DNA of 52,700 nucleotides from positions 1 through 52,700 of the forward strand of contig JAISOL010000038.1 in assembly GCA_031275645.1 (NCBI GenBank), read 5' to 3'. A program made the position numbers and the translations under genes. This document shows, piece after piece, positions 16,651-25,573 of the stretch. Each line of letters opens with the position of its first letter. Position 1 is the stretch's first letter. Origin of the DNA: Deltaproteobacteria bacterium (GTDB taxonomy: Bacteria; Desulfobacterota; Desulfovibrionia; Desulfovibrionales; Desulfovibrionaceae). The notes beneath the pieces were generated by a model that saw only the letters and a list, made by a program, of their open reading frames with translations, did no database searches and was not told the origin of the DNA.

Positions 16651-17601
16651 ATGAGCGAAGCAACGGGAAATATATTTCTTCTGCGCTCTGGATTCGGAAA
16701 GGAAGCCGAAACCTTTACTCCGGAGGACGAAGCCGCCGTATCCTCCTTTATCCCGCCGGCGCGCCCCTGGAAGGGACCGGACGGGGCGGACGGCCTGCGC
16801 CTGGAGGTTAAAGGCGGTACAGACACCTTTATCTGCTCCCTGTGTCCCTCAAGCTTTGATCCGGCCTGGAGTCTGCATGCTCTGGGCCTGCTGCCGGACT
16901 GGGGGGCGGCGCTGGCCCTGCGGCAGTCGGCCGGGCGCGGACAACTGCGCCGGAGCTGGTCTTCTCCCTTGGGGAATCTGCACGTGAGTTTCAAACTCCC
17001 GGCAAGCGGTCTCTTTTCCTCCTCCTCCGCCACCGTGCTTCTGGCCCTGCTTCTCAGCGAGGCTTTCGAGACTCTGGGGCTTCACCTCCGGCTCAAATGG
17101 CCGAATGATCTCGTCCTGCTCACGGATCGCGGATACGCAAAGCTTGGCGGAATGCTTCTGGAGGAAAAAAACGGCGCGCGCATAGCCGGCCTGGGCGTAA
17201 ACTGCCTCCATATGCCCGAAAACGCCCTGCTGCGCGAGGAGGCCGCCCTTCCCCCGGCCGTTCTGCCGAAAAATTTCGCTCCGCGCGCCCCTGTAACCCT
17301 CTGGCTTGAACTTGTAAAAAAAATAAAGGAGATTTATAATGAAAGATTCAAGGATACTCAGCACTCGGACTTACTCCGCCTGGCCGAACGACGTCTGCTC
17401 TGGCGCGGCGAGGAAGTTCGTATAGACGACCCTTCCGCGCCGGTTCTGACCGGAATTCCGGTCGGCCTCTCGGAAGAGGGCGGGCTTTTGCTGCGTATAA
17501 AAAACAACGCCGGGGGAGAAGACATTTACGAACTCGTATCCGGAGGCATCGCGCGTATGGATTCCGGATACCGCCAAAAACGGCCACACGCTGAAGAGTA
17601 A
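16651..17601 (+). CDS. birA: Biotin--protein ligase (BirA/LplA-like catalytic domain)
   Basis: RQSAGRGQLRRSWSSPLGNLHVSF, LKWPNDLVL, KLGGMLLEEKNGARIAGLGVNC. Confidence 0.9.
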   Translation: MSEATGNIFLLRSGFGKEAETFTPEDEAAVSSFIPPARPWKGPDGADGLRLEVKGGTDTFICSLCPSSFDPAWSLHALGLLPDWGAALALRQSAGRGQLRRSWSSPLGNLHVSFKLPASGLFSSSSATVLLALLLSEAFETLGLHLRLKWPNDLVLLTDRGYAKLGGMLLEEKNGARIAGLGVNCLHMPENALLREEAALPPAVLPKNFAPRAPVTLWLELVKKIKEIYNERFKDTQHSDLLRLAERRLLWRGEEVRIDDPSAPVLTGIPVGLSEEGGLLLRIKNNAGGEDIYELVSGGIARMDSGYRQKRPHAEE

Positions 17602-17608
17602 AGGGACT

Positions 17609-20600
17609 ATGACAGAAAAAAGCTTTGAACAGGTGCTGGAGGAGCTGAAAGGCAAGCCGATCCTGGTGACAAACCGGGGAATCCCGGCCCGGCGCATCTG
17701 CCGTTCAGTGCGGGAACGCCTGGAAGCCATAGCCGTAATGACCGCCACGGATGTGGACAAGGCGGCCCCGGCGGCTTCAGCCGCGCAGGAACTCCTGCTT
17801 CTGGGGCCGGACCCCAGCGCCTATCTGGATTTGGAATTGGTGATTTCCCTGGCCAAACAGCATGGCGTAGTGGGAATTCACCCCGGCTGGGGATTCGCCT
17901 CCGAGGACGACTCCTTTCCGGTTCTCTGCGCCGAAGCCGGCATGGTTTTCATCGGGTCCTCGGCTCAGGCCATGCGCCTTCTGGGCAACAAGGTCCAAGT
18001 GCGCCGTCTGGCCAGAACTCTGGATATTCCGGTGGTTCCAGGCTCGGATGGAGCAGTGGACATACCGGAAGCGCGCAGGGCCGCCGCGAAGCTGACCTAT
18101 CCCATCATGCTCAAAGCCGAAGGCGGCGGCGGCGGAAGAGGCATTTTTGTCGTGCATAACGATGAGGAGCTGGAGACGGCCTTTTTCAAAGCCTCCACTA
18201 TGGCTCAGGCTTCTTTCGGCAACCCCGGCGTCTATGTGGAAAAATTTCTGACCAGAGTACGCCACATTGAAATTCAGGTCATCGCGGATAAATACGGCAA
18301 TATTTTCACCTTTGACGAACGCGACTGCTCCGTGCAGCGCAACAATCAGAAACTGATAGAAATCACTCCTTCGCCCTGGGCCGGGATAAGCGAAGAACTG
18401 CGCGCGCGCCTGAAAGACTATGCCCGCAAACTGGTCAAAGCCGTAGCCTACGATTCGCTCTGCACAGTGGAGTTTCTGATTACTCCCTCCGGCTCGCCCT
18501 ATCTGATTGAAGTCAATACCCGCCTGCAGGTGGAACACGGGATTACTGAAGCCCGTTACGGCATTGACCTGGTCGAGGAGCAGATTGCCATTGCTTTCGG
18601 CTCCAGATTGCGTTTTACCGAAGAAAACACCAGACCGGTGCATCACGCCATGCAGGTGCGCATCAACTGCGAAGACCCGCAAAAAAATTTCCTGCCCAAT
18701 TCCGGCACCATCACCCGCTACGTTTCTCCCGGCGGGCCGGGGGTGCGTCTGGATTCAAACCTGAGCGCCGGCTATGAATTCCCTTCCAACTATGATTCCG
18801 CCGGTTCCCTGCTCATAGCCTACGGTAATGACTGGGACAAAACCATCGCCATTATGCGCCGCGCTCTGACCGAATATGTGGTCGGCGGCCTCAAAACCAC
18901 CATTCCCTTCTATCGCCAGGTTCTTAAAAACGATCTTTTCCGGGCCGGCGACTTTGACACTTCCTTCATCCCGCTGCATCCGGAACTTCTGGACTACAAT
19001 GATCTAGCCCCTGAGTCGGAACGACTTTCCAGGCTCATCGCCGAAATCTCCGCTCAGGGCTACAACCCCTTTGTCCAGCTCGGAGAGTACCGTAGCGCCG
19101 ACACGCCGCGCGTGGCCGGCAATATAACGATTTTTCCGCCCCTTGACCAGGAAACGGAGCTCGCTCCTTCGCCCTATCCCAGGGGAGATCGCCGGGCTCT
19201 GCTGGATTTCGTGCGCGATTCCGGGTATATCCATTTTACGGACACCACCTGCCGTGACAACACCCAATCCAACAGCGGCAACCGCTTCCGCCTGGCGGAA
19301 GACAGGCTCATAGGCCCCTATCTGGACAACTGCGGCTTTTTTTCGCTGGAAACAGGCGGCGGCGCCCATTTCCATGTGGCCATGCTGGCCAACATGACCT
19401 ACCCTTTCAGCGAAGCCAGAGTCTGGAACCAGTTCGCCCCCAAAACCCTGAAGCAGATCCTTATCCGCTCCACCAATCTTCTGGGCTACCGGCCAATGCC
19501 GCGCAACCTGATGCGCCGCACGGCCGAAATGGTCTGTACGGAATTTCAGATAATCCGCTGTTTCGACTTCCTGAACCAGGCGGAAAACATGCGCCCTCTG
19601 GCGGAAGTGGTGCTGAACGACGCGACCTGCGTCTTTGAACCGGCCATAGCCCTGAGCTACAGCCCGGCTTTTACCGTGGAATACTACCTGGAAGCGGCCG
19701 AGTCCATGCTGCGCCTTGCTGGCGATGTCGGCGGAATTTCCCCGGAAAAAGCCTGCGTGCGCATGATTCTCGGCCTCAAGGATATGGGCGGCACCTGCCC
19801 GGCCCACTTCATGACGCGCCTTGTCACAGCCCTGCGTAAAAAATGGCCCTCCCTGGTGCTGCATTATCACCGTCATTATACGGACGGACATTTCATCCCG
19901 GCCGTGGGGGCCGCGGCCAGGGCCGGGGCGCAAATCGTGGATACTTCCCTGGCGGCCGTCACCCGCTGGTACGGACAGGGGGAAGTGCTTTCCACCGCCG
20001 CCTATCTGGAGGAAGACCTGGGGCTTGAAACCCGGCTCAACAAAAAACTGATCCGCGACTGCAATTTCGTGCTCAAGCAGATCGCTCCCTACTACGACCG
20101 CTACACCTCTCCCTATTTCCAGGGCGTGGATTTCGACGTGCGCAGCCACGGCATGCCCGGAGGAGCGACCTCCTCCTCCCAGGAAGGAGCCCTCAAACAG
20201 GGGCAAATCGCCCTCCTGCCGTACATGCTGCGCTTTCTGGCCGGGACGCGCCGGATCGTCTTTTACCATGACGTGACCCCCGGCTCACAGATCACCTGGA
20301 ATACGGCTTTTCTGGGCGTGACCGGCGCTTACGCGCGGGGCGGAGAAGAAGAGGTGCGCCACCTCCTGCGTATTCTGGAAGAGGTGGCCGGACAGGCGGA
20401 AGAAACTTTGTCCGAAAGCTTGAAAGAGGAAAGGCTGATTATTTACCGGGATTGCAACGACGCTTTCAGAGACCTGCTTTTGGGAAAATACGGCCGCCTC
20501 CCTCTGGGTTTTCCTCCGGACTGGGTGTACCGCAGCGCCTTTCAGCAGGACTGGCGGAAAGCTCTGGCCAGACGCACGGAAATCCCGCCTCTGGAGAAAC

Positions 20601-21310
20601 TGCCGGATGCGGATATGGAAGGGGAACGCGCCGCGCTCAAGGGACTCATACTCCGCGAACCCAACGAGGAAGAACTGCTCATGTATCTGAACCATCCCGG
20701 AGACGCGGTAAAAACCATTGAATTCCGGCAGCGTTTCGGCGATCCCAACAATCTTCCTCTGGCGGTGTGGTTTGAAGGATTACAGGAAGGGACGGAACTC
20801 AACTTCACCGACAGCAACGGCAAACCGCACAATTTCCATCTCCTGCGCATTCAGCGCCAGAATAAGCTCGGCATATCCGTGGTCCGCTATGTGCTGGACT
20901 CGGAATTCATGAGCCACGACGTCCGGGTGGGCAAGGGGGAAACTTCAGCCGCCAGAGGAACGGTTCTGGCCGATCCGGCCAATGAATACCATATCCCCTC
21001 GCCCAGCAACGGCGATTTGTGGGTGGTCTACGTCAAAGCCGGCGATATGGTGAAAAAGGGGCAGGAACTGTTCAACATCTCGATTATGAAACAGGAAAAG
21101 GCCGTGCTGGCTCCTTTTGACGCGCAGGTCAAACGCGTGCTCAAAACCGCCGACTTCAAGGCAAACAAAAAAATGACCCCGGTTCGCTCCGGAGAGCTGC
21201 TCGTCGAGCTTGCTCCCGTTCCGGCGCGCTGTCCCAATCCGCAGTGCGGCAAAATTCTGCCGGGCAAAGACTACGCCTTCTGTCCCCACTGCGGACAGAG
21301 CACGGCGTAA
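17609..21310 (+). CDS. pyc: Pyruvate carboxylase-like multidomain biotin enzyme with C-terminal zinc-ribbon-like extension
   Basis: Biotin carboxylase (LKAEGGGGGRGIFVV, EVNTRLQVEHGITE), carboxyltransferase (FTDTTCRDNTQS, LKDMGG, HYHRHYTDG), biotinyl-like SIMKQEK, then CPNPQCGKILPGKDYAFCPHCGQ. Confidence 0.88.
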   Translation: MTEKSFEQVLEELKGKPILVTNRGIPARRICRSVRERLEAIAVMTATDVDKAAPAASAAQELLLLGPDPSAYLDLELVISLAKQHGVVGIHPGWGFASEDDSFPVLCAEAGMVFIGSSAQAMRLLGNKVQVRRLARTLDIPVVPGSDGAVDIPEARRAAAKLTYPIMLKAEGGGGGRGIFVVHNDEELETAFFKASTMAQASFGNPGVYVEKFLTRVRHIEIQVIADKYGNIFTFDERDCSVQRNNQKLIEITPSPWAGISEELRARLKDYARKLVKAVAYDSLCTVEFLITPSGSPYLIEVNTRLQVEHGITEARYGIDLVEEQIAIAFGSRLRFTEENTRPVHHAMQVRINCEDPQKNFLPNSGTITRYVSPGGPGVRLDSNLSAGYEFPSNYDSAGSLLIAYGNDWDKTIAIMRRALTEYVVGGLKTTIPFYRQVLKNDLFRAGDFDTSFIPLHPELLDYNDLAPESERLSRLIAEISAQGYNPFVQLGEYRSADTPRVAGNITIFPPLDQETELAPSPYPRGDRRALLDFVRDSGYIHFTDTTCRDNTQSNSGNRFRLAEDRLIGPYLDNCGFFSLETGGGAHFHVAMLANMTYPFSEARVWNQFAPKTLKQILIRSTNLLGYRPMPRNLMRRTAEMVCTEFQIIRCFDFLNQAENMRPLAEVVLNDATCVFEPAIALSYSPAFTVEYYLEAAESMLRLAGDVGGISPEKACVRMILGLKDMGGTCPAHFMTRLVTALRKKWPSLVLHYHRHYTDGHFIPAVGAAARAGAQIVDTSLAAVTRWYGQGEVLSTAAYLEEDLGLETRLNKKLIRDCNFVLKQIAPYYDRYTSPYFQGVDFDVRSHGMPGGATSSSQEGALKQGQIALLPYMLRFLAGTRRIVFYHDVTPGSQITWNTAFLGVTGAYARGGEEEVRHLLRILEEVAGQAEETLSESLKEERLIIYRDCNDAFRDLLLGKYGRLPLGFPPDWVYRSAFQQDWRKALARRTEIPPLEKLPDADMEGERAALKGLILREPNEEELLMYLNHPGDAVKTIEFRQRFGDPNNLPLAVWFEGLQEGTELNFTDSNGKPHNFHLLRIQRQNKLGISVVRYVLDSEFMSHDVRVGKGETSAARGTVLADPANEYHIPSPSNGDLWVVYVKAGDMVKKGQELFNISIMKQEKAVLAPFDAQVKRVLKTADFKANKKMTPVRSGELLVELAPVPARCPNPQCGKILPGKDYAFCPHCGQSTA

Positions 21311-21345: not shown

Positions 21346-21837
21346 TTACGGGCGTTCAGCCCAGCGCGCATAGGGGTGTCTGACCAGGACGGCGTTGTAA
21401 TAACGCGCGTCTCCGGTCACTTCCTCTCCTATCCAGAACGGCCTGCTGAAAGTCTGATCCGCGCTCGCCAATTCCACTTCCGCCACCACCAGGCCGGCGT
21501 TTTCCGCCATAAATTCGTCTATTTCCCAGGTAAGGCCATCAGAGGGAACAAAATAGCGCTTTTTTTCGATAAACGGTCTTTCCGCCAGCGTCTCCAGCAT
21601 GGCCTCGCCATCGGACAAGGGAATCTCGTATTCGTATTCATCCCTGACCATGCCGGAACCGGCGCCCTTGACCGCAAGAAAAGCCCGGCCTCCGGCCACG
21701 CGCACGCGCACGACGCACCCGCCGGCACTGCTCAGATAGCCCTGCCGGCAATACAGAACTCTCTCGGCCAAATTCTTCCAGACAAAACTCCCGATCCCGT
21801 CGCGCAACAAAAATTTACGCTCGATCTCTCTGCCCAT
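21346..21837 (-). CDS. CYTH-domain protein (triphosphate tunnel metalloenzyme-like)
   Basis: N-terminal EIERKFL, RVRVAGGRAFLAVKG, KRYFVP, WEIDEF, AEVEL. Confidence 0.9.
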   Translation of the reverse strand: MGREIERKFLLRDGIGSFVWKNLAERVLYCRQGYLSSAGGCVVRVRVAGGRAFLAVKGAGSGMVRDEYEYEIPLSDGEAMLETLAERPFIEKKRYFVPSDGLTWEIDEFMAENAGLVVAEVELASADQTFSRPFWIGEEVTGDARYYNAVLVRHPYARWAERP

Positions 21838-22027: not shown

Positions 22028-25000
22028 ATGCCCAAAACGAAAATAAATAAATCCGCGGAAGACACAGCCAAACTGATTCTGAACGGCGCGGAAATTGTGG
22101 CTATGGGAGAAGAGGCTGAGCTTCTGGTGGGGGGAAAAAACTACAATACAGCCATTATAAGCCAGGTTCCCGGAGTAAGGGCGCCGCATTTCCGGGCGGT
22201 CTCCTCCGTGGCCTTCCATCTGGTGCTGGATAACTGCTTCATCAACCCGGCCGTTGTCCGCGCGGTTGTGGACAGAGAATACAAGCGCATTGACTGGAAT
22301 GATCCGGAAATAAGCGGAGATTCGGAATTTTTGCAGAAGCTCGTGCGTACCCTGGGAAAACTCATCCGGGACGAAGGCGGCGCCCAGGATAAAGGACAGA
22401 GCAAAACCAAGCTGCGCACCTTCATCAACAATGTGGTGGAAGGCTTCGCCACCTCCCCGGAAGGCATAGACCAGTTGCGCAGGCGCTCCGTGCTGGTGCA
22501 GGCCGCCATTCTTTCCGTCATTCTGCCCGAAGAGGTGGACGAGGCGATACGCCGGGGTTACGCGGAAATCTGCGCCGAGGCGGAGGAAGAAAATGTTCCC
22601 GTGGCCGTGCGTTCTTCAGCCGCCGGAGAGGATTCCCGTAAAAAAGCCTTTGCCGGTTTGCAGGATACCTATTTGAACATGAACGGCCCGGAGCAGGTGG
22701 TCACGGCCTATCACTGGGACTGCGCCTCCGCCTACAACCTGCGTTCCATGACCTACCGCCGGGAAGCCGTGCTGGACGCCCTGGCCAGGGCGGAAGCCAC
22801 CGGAGACGAGAGCATTTCCCTCAAAGCCAAGCAGGAATGGGCCATTGAGAACACTTCCCTTTCCGTGTGCCTGATGCGCATGATCAATCCGGTTATCTCG
22901 GGCACGGCCTTTTCTGCGGACACGGCCACCGGCTGCCGGGGCACAACGCGCAACGATCTGGTTTCAATTGACGCCAGTTACGGCCTGGGCGAGGCGGTGG
23001 TGGGCGGCATGGTCACTCCGGACAAATACTACGTCTTCCGGCGTGATGACGGAAACGAAGTGGTCATCCGCCAGATGGGCTGCAAGGACATCAAAATTGT
23101 TTATGAACACGGCGGCGGCACCAAGAAAGTCCAGGTGCCGGAACAGGAGGTTTACCGCTGGTCCCTTTCACTGAGCCAGGCCGAGACAGTGGCCAGGGGA
23201 GTGCGCTCCATCAGCCAGGCCTATGGCGGCATGATTATGGATTCAGAGTTCTGCGTGGATAAAAACGATGTGCTATGGTTTGTGCAGGCCAGGCCGGAAA
23301 CCCGCTGGAACGAAGAATTCGAGCTGCATCCGGACACTATTTTCATGCGGCGCAAAGAGGTGGACCCCAAATACCTCCAGGGAGCGGAGCTTCTGCTGGA
23401 AGGCAACGGCGCCTCCCGCGGCGCCGGGCAGGGCACGGTGAGATTCCTTCGTTCAGCCCTGGAACTGAACCGGGTTGAAAAAGGGGATATCCTGGTCGCT
23501 GAGCGCACCGATCCGGATATGGTTCCGGGCATGCGCATAGCCTCGGCCATTATGGCCGACGTGGGCGGAGACACCTCGCATGCGGCCATCACTTCCCGCG
23601 AACTGGGCATCCCGGCGGTGATAGGCATACAGCGCCTGGACATGCTGCGCACTCTGGACGGACAGGAAGTGACGGTGGACGGTTCCAACGGACGCGTATA
23701 CAAGGGTTTGCTGCCTCTGGTGGACGTGGGCGGCGAAATAGACCTGTCCACCCTGCCCGAGACCCGCACCAAAGTCGGCCTGGTGCTGGCCGACGTGGGG
23801 CAGGCCATGTTCCTTTCCCGTCTGCGCAACATGAGTGATTTTGAAGTCGGGCTCCTGCGCGCCGAATTCATGCTGGGCAATATCGGGGTGCATCCCATGG
23901 CCCTGGCGGCTTACGACAGCGGCGAACTGGAGCGGGACGTGCAGGAGCACCTCCTGGCGCTGGAAGAACAGCTTTCCAAAATCCTGCGTTCCCAGTACAA
24001 CGCCGGGCTGATCAGCGGACGGCTCCGCCTGCGCGAATATGTGGCCCATCTTACCGGTCTGCATCCTGAAATTGAAAAATTGAACAACCAGGATATGCAC
24101 GGTTCGGAACAGGCTCTGTTCTTGCAGCGCAGCCTGCGCGAGCTGGAAAACCGGCTGGACGAATATGTGGAACGGGCGGCCAGGCGCCTGGATATACTCA
24201 ACACCAGCACGGATCTGGATTTGCATGTGCGCATTATCTACGGCTTTGAGGAGGAGCCCGGCCCGCTTGCGGGGACTTCGGCGGAAATAGCCAGCCGGCG
24301 CACGGAAATTGAGGCTGAAATAAAAATGCACAGCGAACGGGCCGCAAGTAATCCCCTGATCCAGGAAAGCCTGCGCGAAATAGCTTCTCTCCGTTCGGAT
24401 GTGGCCAGGCGAAACGGCATGGATAAAGAAATCGAGGCTGTACGCGCCATACCTCTGCACATCAGGGAGCTCATCCGCTCCCGCGGCTACCGTTCCGGCA
24501 AGGAACATTACGTGCAGACTCTCTCCCAGGGCCTGGCCCTGTTCTGCATGGCCTTTTACGGGCGGGACATAATCTACCGCACCACCGACTTCAAATCCAA
24601 TGAATACCGCAATCTCCTGGGAGGCATGCTCTACGAGAACACGGAGGACAACCCCATGCTCGGCTGGCGCGGCGTTTCCCGCGATCTGAGCGATTGGGAA
24701 CTGGAGGCCTTCAAACTGGCCCGCGGCGTATACGGCGGACGCAATCTGCACATTATGCTGCCTTTTGTCCGCACCCTGGAAGAAGCTCGCAGCATGCGCA
24801 TATATATGGAACAGGTGCACAAACTCAAAAGCGGCCAGGACGGGCTCAAGGTGATCCAGATGTCCGAGCTGCCCAGCAATGCCATTCTTTCCAAAGAATT
24901 CATCAGGGAATTCGACGGCTTTTCCATAGGCTCCAACGACATGACCCAGATGGTTCTGGCCACGGACCGCGACAATGCCAGCCTTGGCCATATTTACGAC

Positions 25001-25573
25001 GAGGAAGACCCGGCCGTGGTCTGGGCTATCCTGGTCACCATCTTCACCGGCATAAAAACCGGCAGAAAAGTCGGCTTCTGCGGACAGGGCGTCTCCAACA
25101 GCCTGATTATCCGTGGCCTGGTGGCCATAGCAGGCATTACCTCCGCCTCGGTGGTGCCGGATACCTACTACCAGACCAAGCTGGACATCCACAGCCTAGA
25201 GCAGGAAAACATCCCCGCGTCCGGGCTCGGCTCCTGGCTGCGTCTTCAGCATCACAAAAATCTCTGTTTCCTGATGGAGAAAGAAGGCTACGGGCATATC
25301 CTCAAAAAATACGACCAGCCTGAAGATTTGGAAGAATGGTATGAAGGCGAACTCTCCCGTCTGCAGGATAACCTGCGCGGAAGCCTGGAAAGCGCCAAGG
25401 AAAAATTTTACCGCCAGGAATGGTCTAACTTCCGGCGCATCTTTCACAAGCCGGTCATCTACGCTTCCTGGGACTGGGACAAAACCGTGGAAGACGCCCT
25501 GCGCCACTCCGGATTCCGGAACTTTGAGGAACAGGCTGAAGCTCTGGAAGAAGTGCGCCGGAAAAAACTATGA
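22028..25573 (+). CDS. ppsA: Phosphoenolpyruvate synthase-like protein (PEP/pyruvate-binding and PEP-utilising domains)
   Basis: AVRSSAAGEDSRKKAFAGLQDTYLN, GGDTSHAAITSRELGIPAVIG, YRTTDFKSNEYRNLLGG, SIGSNDMTQMVLATDRD, GFCGQG. Confidence 0.88.
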   Translation: MPKTKINKSAEDTAKLILNGAEIVAMGEEAELLVGGKNYNTAIISQVPGVRAPHFRAVSSVAFHLVLDNCFINPAVVRAVVDREYKRIDWNDPEISGDSEFLQKLVRTLGKLIRDEGGAQDKGQSKTKLRTFINNVVEGFATSPEGIDQLRRRSVLVQAAILSVILPEEVDEAIRRGYAEICAEAEEENVPVAVRSSAAGEDSRKKAFAGLQDTYLNMNGPEQVVTAYHWDCASAYNLRSMTYRREAVLDALARAEATGDESISLKAKQEWAIENTSLSVCLMRMINPVISGTAFSADTATGCRGTTRNDLVSIDASYGLGEAVVGGMVTPDKYYVFRRDDGNEVVIRQMGCKDIKIVYEHGGGTKKVQVPEQEVYRWSLSLSQAETVARGVRSISQAYGGMIMDSEFCVDKNDVLWFVQARPETRWNEEFELHPDTIFMRRKEVDPKYLQGAELLLEGNGASRGAGQGTVRFLRSALELNRVEKGDILVAERTDPDMVPGMRIASAIMADVGGDTSHAAITSRELGIPAVIGIQRLDMLRTLDGQEVTVDGSNGRVYKGLLPLVDVGGEIDLSTLPETRTKVGLVLADVGQAMFLSRLRNMSDFEVGLLRAEFMLGNIGVHPMALAAYDSGELERDVQEHLLALEEQLSKILRSQYNAGLISGRLRLREYVAHLTGLHPEIEKLNNQDMHGSEQALFLQRSLRELENRLDEYVERAARRLDILNTSTDLDLHVRIIYGFEEEPGPLAGTSAEIASRRTEIEAEIKMHSERAASNPLIQESLREIASLRSDVARRNGMDKEIEAVRAIPLHIRELIRSRGYRSGKEHYVQTLSQGLALFCMAFYGRDIIYRTTDFKSNEYRNLLGGMLYENTEDNPMLGWRGVSRDLSDWELEAFKLARGVYGGRNLHIMLPFVRTLEEARSMRIYMEQVHKLKSGQDGLKVIQMSELPSNAILSKEFIREFDGFSIGSNDMTQMVLATDRDNASLGHIYDEEDPAVVWAILVTIFTGIKTGRKVGFCGQGVSNSLIIRGLVAIAGITSASVVPDTYYQTKLDIHSLEQENIPASGLGSWLRLQHHKNLCFLMEKEGYGHILKKYDQPEDLEEWYEGELSRLQDNLRGSLESAKEKFYRQEWSNFRRIFHKPVIYASWDWDKTVEDALRHSGFRNFEEQAEALEEVRRKKL

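Follow-up and report, generated by a model that had tools for sequence, protein, structure and literature searches.

A pyruvate carboxylase gene with an unusual C terminus

The window analysed here is a 52,700-nucleotide stretch of contig JAISOL010000038.1, from a member of the Desulfovibrionaceae. It encodes a single-chain pyruvate carboxylase (PC), with biotin carboxylase (BC), carboxyltransferase (CT) and biotin-carrier domains, flanked by the following genes and ending in a four-cysteine (Cys4) module:

16651–17601, plus strand: biotin–protein ligase (BirA), ending 8 nt before the PC start (BPL_LplA_LipB, 43.5 bits against a cut-off of 21)
17609–21310, plus strand: single-chain PC, 1233 aa, with a C-terminal Cys4 tail (NCBIfam PRK12999, Pfam and PDB matches)
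17648–18988, plus strand: BC domain of PC, residues 14–460 (Pfam; PF02785 search; catalytic motifs kept)
19226–20338, plus strand: CT domain of PC, about residues 540–910 (NCBIfam/Pfam; conservation table; AlphaFold2 model)
20993–21226, plus strand: biotin carrier (barrel-sandwich) domain of PC, about residues 1129–1206 (Biotin_lipoyl; model; Foldseek)
21080–21097, plus strand: SIMKQE motif, residues 1158–1163, with the presumed biotinyl-Lys1161 at 21089–21091 (direct reading; alignment)
21230–21307, plus strand: C-terminal Cys4 module of 26 residues, zinc-ribbon-like, with Cys1208, Cys1213, Cys1225 and Cys1228 (alignment; Zn_ribbon_3)
21346–21837, minus strand: CYTH-domain protein, between PC and ppsA
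22028–25573, plus strand: phosphoenolpyruvate synthase (PpsA), 1181 aa, downstream of PC (PRK06464, 593 bits against a cut-off of 598)

We found that PC scored 1195 bits against the NCBIfam profile PRK12999 (cut-off 965), and the best solved relatives of the open reading frame at 17609–21310 in a PDB search were pyruvate carboxylases, with E values down to 1e-135. Pfam recognized BC (N-terminal, ATP-grasp and C-terminal), the PYC_OADA conserved carboxylase region and Biotin_lipoyl, which together with PRK12999 places the BC, CT and carrier domains within one chain. The TIGR01235 pyruv_carbox equivalog of NCBIfam was not reached (603 versus 1114 bits); judged by this profile, the protein falls outside the canonical single-chain subgroup that TIGR01235 describes. 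The carrier scored 34.1 bits against Biotin_lipoyl (PF00364; cut-off 22.1). AlphaFold2 modelled the carrier plus tail at a pLDDT of 92 and the C-terminal half at 85, and Foldseek matched the latter model to the CT-PT-BCCP halves of known PCs (E of 5e-44) and the carrier model to PC BCCP domains (E of 1.6e-7). PF00364, the AlphaFold2 model and Foldseek together indicate that the carrier folds as a barrel sandwich whose MK hairpin is exposed.

In all 39 Desulfovibrio-type sequences, the BC columns of the glycine-rich loop, HIEIQ, RDC..QR..QK, E..N.R.QVEH and the biotin-binding Arg were kept, as were the CT columns RD..Q, R620, Y627, K724, H754, H756 and S855. These columns correspond to catalytic positions of the enzymes from S. 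aureus, R. etli and E. coli; a search of the open-access literature for active-site residues by residue number returned nothing. Because the BC and CT catalytic residues are retained, the window protein is very probably a working PC, and its acceptor would be pyruvate. The CT domain departs from canonical PCs in having HYHRHYTDG for HxHTHDxxG, His589 for Asp, GGATSSS for GGQYSN and Y757 for Asp. Given the changes from HxHTHD to HYHRHY and from Asp to His589, its kinetics, and even its acceptor, could differ. The D. vulgaris homologue DVU_1834, which we identified as such from its neighbour, the PpsA DVU_1833, and from its size, is annotated Pc and was detected by proteomics beside that PpsA (PMC10920352).

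Motif and tail are conserved across the order

A search through 84,980 species genomes yielded 25 close relatives of PC with 62–76% identity, the 10 other matches being ordinary PCs of Anaerostipes/Lachnospiraceae. SIMKQEK together with the Cys4 tail was present in all 23 of the 25 close relatives whose C terminus is intact. The last 116 residues of PC were matched in 284 of 348 genomes of the order (218 of 246 among the good ones), and these order-wide matches, among those listed, extended to residue 112–114 of the 116-residue query, in which the fourth Cys is residue 111. The earlier note, made from the letters of this DNA, had named a strain-specific tail as grounds for refutation; the conservation of the tail speaks otherwise, and its presence in hundreds of independent genomes also rules out an assembly artefact. 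Outside the order but within the same phylum, the homologue search placed MKQE plus tail in three further families (f87, f67 and f81), and two others (f55 and f45, about 50% identity) had this Cys4 tail too, with LMKVE or LMKIE as the motif. Because f55 and f45 keep the tail without the Gln, the tail is older than the Gln. On the sequences compared, motif and tail are fixed features across an order of mostly sulfate-reducing bacteria.

Second PC copies, found in four genomes (G001, G003, G007 and G013), keep both motif and tail. The second tailed PCs (loci L139, L141, L142 and L144) sit away from birA and ppsA, and in L139, L141 and L142 they adjoin a gene whose product is about 274 aa long. 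The tailed PC of f45 (L131; G531:C12, 4693–8400) is interrupted immediately ahead of the carrier motif by a shift of frame and an in-frame TAG, which may reflect a sequencing error, a pseudogene or recoding.

The tail has the pattern of a metal site

Translation of the open reading frame gave the C-terminal end of PC as RCPNPQCGKILPGKDYAFCPHCGQSTA, in agreement with the sequence and position of the tail reported in the earlier note. Across 38 aligned C termini from different genomes, the four Cys were invariant, whereas the other tail columns averaged a 43% majority residue and the carrier 77%; the Cys4 pattern is far beyond chance. The spacing was CX2C-X11-CX2C (2,11,2) in 20 members and CX4C-X11-CX2C (4,11,2) in 12, and two CxxC-type knuckles (CX2-4C...CX2C) were conserved in 38 of 38. 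Fixed ligands combined with free loops, and a spacing that varies between members as in metal knuckles, make this a metal-site pattern. In a profile search, 33 of the 38 members matched Zn_ribbon_3 at E ≤ 0.1 (best, 1.7e-7), the window copy scoring 16.2 bits, under the curated cut-off of 27. AlphaFold2 modelled the tail at a pLDDT of 82–87, and the module lies a few residues past the last carrier strand. The 10 Anaerostipes PCs compared have EAMKMETT and no tail. These results uphold the proposal that a four-Cys, zinc-ribbon-like module absent from standard PCs is fused to a real pyruvate carboxylase.

Loss of the methionine after the biotinyl lysine

The carrier motif of PC reads SIMKQEK instead of (A/S)MKM, and the canonical (A/V)MKM is replaced by IMKQ, as the earlier note had remarked. 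The Met preceding the Lys is invariant, as is the Glu two positions past the Lys, and only the Met immediately following the Lys is lost. In the 38 aligned C termini, MK and E were invariant and the Gln of MKQE was present in 35, with MKVE in 3 deeper members; all 35 aligned Desulfovibrio-type carrier regions combined MKQE with Cys4. The Met after the Lys is also replaced in f55/f45 and in part of a sister group of two-gene PCs (VMKTEN).

Beside the acetyl-CoA carboxylase (ACC) operon accC-accAD of Desulfovibrionales lies a gene for a carrier-like protein of 216 residues, whose motif was SRMKRE in all 11 genomes where the gene was found; within the stretch read of one further ACC operon (L147), no such gene was present. 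Neither recognized biotin carrier of the order, then, has the Met, so the substitution is a lineage habit and not specific to PC, and on these alignments the loss is lineage-wide. In the window genome PC looked like the sole biotin acceptor, which would let its motif drift freely, but the accC-accAD-BCCP operon, with its second atypical carrier, in most sampled relatives speaks against this. The ACC carrier (loci L146 and L167–L176) scores near or below the Biotin_lipoyl cut-off where it was detected, and by eye its N-terminal half resembles a second, lysine-less barrel-sandwich domain. The window genome, which is 89% complete, contains one Biotin_carb_C domain (in PC; PF02785 search) and one biotinyl domain over the cut-off. 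No accC was seen in it, though most sampled relatives have one; this may reflect missing sequence or a true loss of ACC.

Origin of the tailed enzyme

By the CT half, the nearest relatives of PC are CT-carrier proteins of about 690 residues, with 38–43% identity over about 560 aa. They mostly adjoin a separate BC gene, have the motif EAMKMEN, SMKMEN or VMKTEN, and lack the Cys4 tail. In a tree of the CT half, tailed PCs formed one clade (100/100), with f55 as the first branch and the two-gene proteins next. Because they form a single CT clade, the tail was probably gained once, on the stem of that clade. This stem is also the first place at which the CT half is found joined to BC in the CT tree. 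In the BC trees, however, the BC subunits of two-gene PCs group with canonical PCs and the tailed enzymes stand apart; both CT and BC trees carry long-branch warnings and are uncertain at depth. That the tailed PC arose simply by fusion of the two genes of its sister PC would fit the CT tree but not the BC trees. With the BC half not joined to two-gene PCs, tail origin and gene fusion appear to coincide on the CT tree only.

The window PC shares its BC-CT-PT-BCCP order, its catalytic motifs and the folds of its C-terminal half and carrier with the alpha4-type single-chain PCs (S. aureus, R. etli, L. lactis and human); Foldseek alignments of the C-terminal half show about 22–24% identity. It differs from them in having IMKQ instead of AMKM and an added Cys4 tail, and its CT half groups with two-gene PCs, not with the canonical single-chain PCs used in the tree. 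The two-subunit PCs of other phylum members (PycA plus PycB) have the closest CT half, encoded in an operon with a separate BC gene; their motif is EAMKMEN/SMKME or VMKTEN and they are tailless, whereas the window PC is fused, with MKQE and a tail. The tail has in common with the zinc-ribbon modules PF13248, PF13240 and PF12773 a CxxC...CPxCG pattern, but the window copy falls under the curated cut-off and sits on a biotin carrier. The ACC carrier of Desulfovibrionales (216 aa, BCCP-like), of the same lineage and likewise without Met after the Lys (SRMKRE), is by contrast stand-alone, encoded after accC-accAD, and has no Cys4 tail.

Proposed role of the tail

The reading that we favour, at a probability of roughly 55%, is a working single-chain PC of a lineage-specific type whose mobile carrier bears a structural metal-binding cap, probably a zinc ribbon, and whose attachment site has a tolerated Gln. 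The BC domain would use ATP and bicarbonate to carboxylate biotin on Lys1161, and the carrier would then swing to the CT domain, where pyruvate would be converted to oxaloacetate, as the conserved catalytic residues and family membership suggest. Sequence and fold prediction point to the Cys4 module being a small metal-binding ribbon, with zinc the most likely metal. A short linker joins the module to the last carrier strand, so it should move with the carrier. Its role is most likely structural, to close the mobile carrier at its C-terminal end and stiffen it there, and it may assist carrier docking inside the single-chain enzyme; because conservation is low outside the Cys and no interaction surface is visible, such docking is conjectural. 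The Gln that follows the biotinyl-Lys would be a tolerated, lineage-fixed substitution at a position also changed in the group's other biotin carrier, and Lys1161 would still be biotinylated by an ordinary BirA.

A possible but unlikely alternative is that the tail acts as a regulatory sensor of redox state, zinc or sulfide, switching carboxylation when its Cys lose or gain metal or become oxidized. Strict conservation of Cys4, its location on the moving carrier and the plausibility of oxidant or sulfide sensing in anaerobic hosts would suit such a role, but the tail is a constant feature of many genera, and of both paralogues where a genome has two PCs, with no accompanying variation suggestive of tuning. 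More doubtful still is a role for the tail as a switch that sits on the swinging biotin arm and responds to metal or redox state, which would be a new form of regulation of CO2 fixation at the pyruvate node in sulfate reducers.

The neighbouring genes might suggest two further roles. The order birA-PC-ppsA recurs in 17 relatives' loci, as would be expected if the tail tethered PC to the PpsA encoded downstream and so coupled both pyruvate-consuming enzymes. We consider this very unlikely, as the tail is also present without a downstream ppsA (L006, L007, L009, L020, L024, f55 and the paralogues). The window PpsA, at 1181 aa, is longer than its profile (about 790–800) and has 66–79% identity in relatives.

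The earlier note had also raised contact with the neighbouring BirA. birA lies directly upstream of PC in 33 of the 33 main tailed-PC loci with upstream sequence, and the biotin loop of the window BirA reads GRGQLRR instead of GRGRxGR; most Desulfovibrionales loci have GRGQxRR, in which the Gln stands, we presume, at the place of E. coli Arg118. Tail and altered motif could therefore form a docking site co-evolved with BirA. Three observations disfavour this. The complete genome G094 and the genome G418 each have one BPL/LplA/LipB-family gene and, in addition to a tailed PC, a carrier that lacks the tail: an ACC carrier with SRMKREK in G094, and one with EAMKMEN in G418. The tail is also present in the paralogous PCs and in those of f55, which have no BirA neighbour. 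Finally, the BirA loop does not follow the motif, since Desulfonatronovibrio and f87 combine MKQE and tail with the standard GRGRxGR. We therefore give docking on BirA very little credence, and the tail is unlikely to be required for BirA recognition. A carboxylase for another 2-oxo acid, to which the divergent CT (Y757 and H589 both in place of Asp) and the missed TIGR01235 might point, is highly improbable, as PRK12999 is passed, the canonical-column RD..Q, Arg, Tyr, Lys, His-X-His and Ser are invariant, PC is syntenic with PpsA and the D. vulgaris homologue is annotated Pc.

Significance

Pyruvate carboxylase, which adds CO2 to pyruvate, is a textbook swinging-arm enzyme. Descriptions of it usually distinguish a single-chain from a two-subunit form (PMC8100219). 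In the open-access literature searched, we found no relevant paper that mentions a zinc ribbon along with pyruvate carboxylase. With the Met absent from both recognized biotin carriers of the order, searches and annotation based on AMKM miss the two of them, a warning for work on these bacteria. An order-wide PC with a metal-type cap and a non-AMKM site would offer a natural test of which residues near the biotinyl lysine ligation and carboxyl transfer require, and of the effect that an extra domain has on the movement of the carrier.
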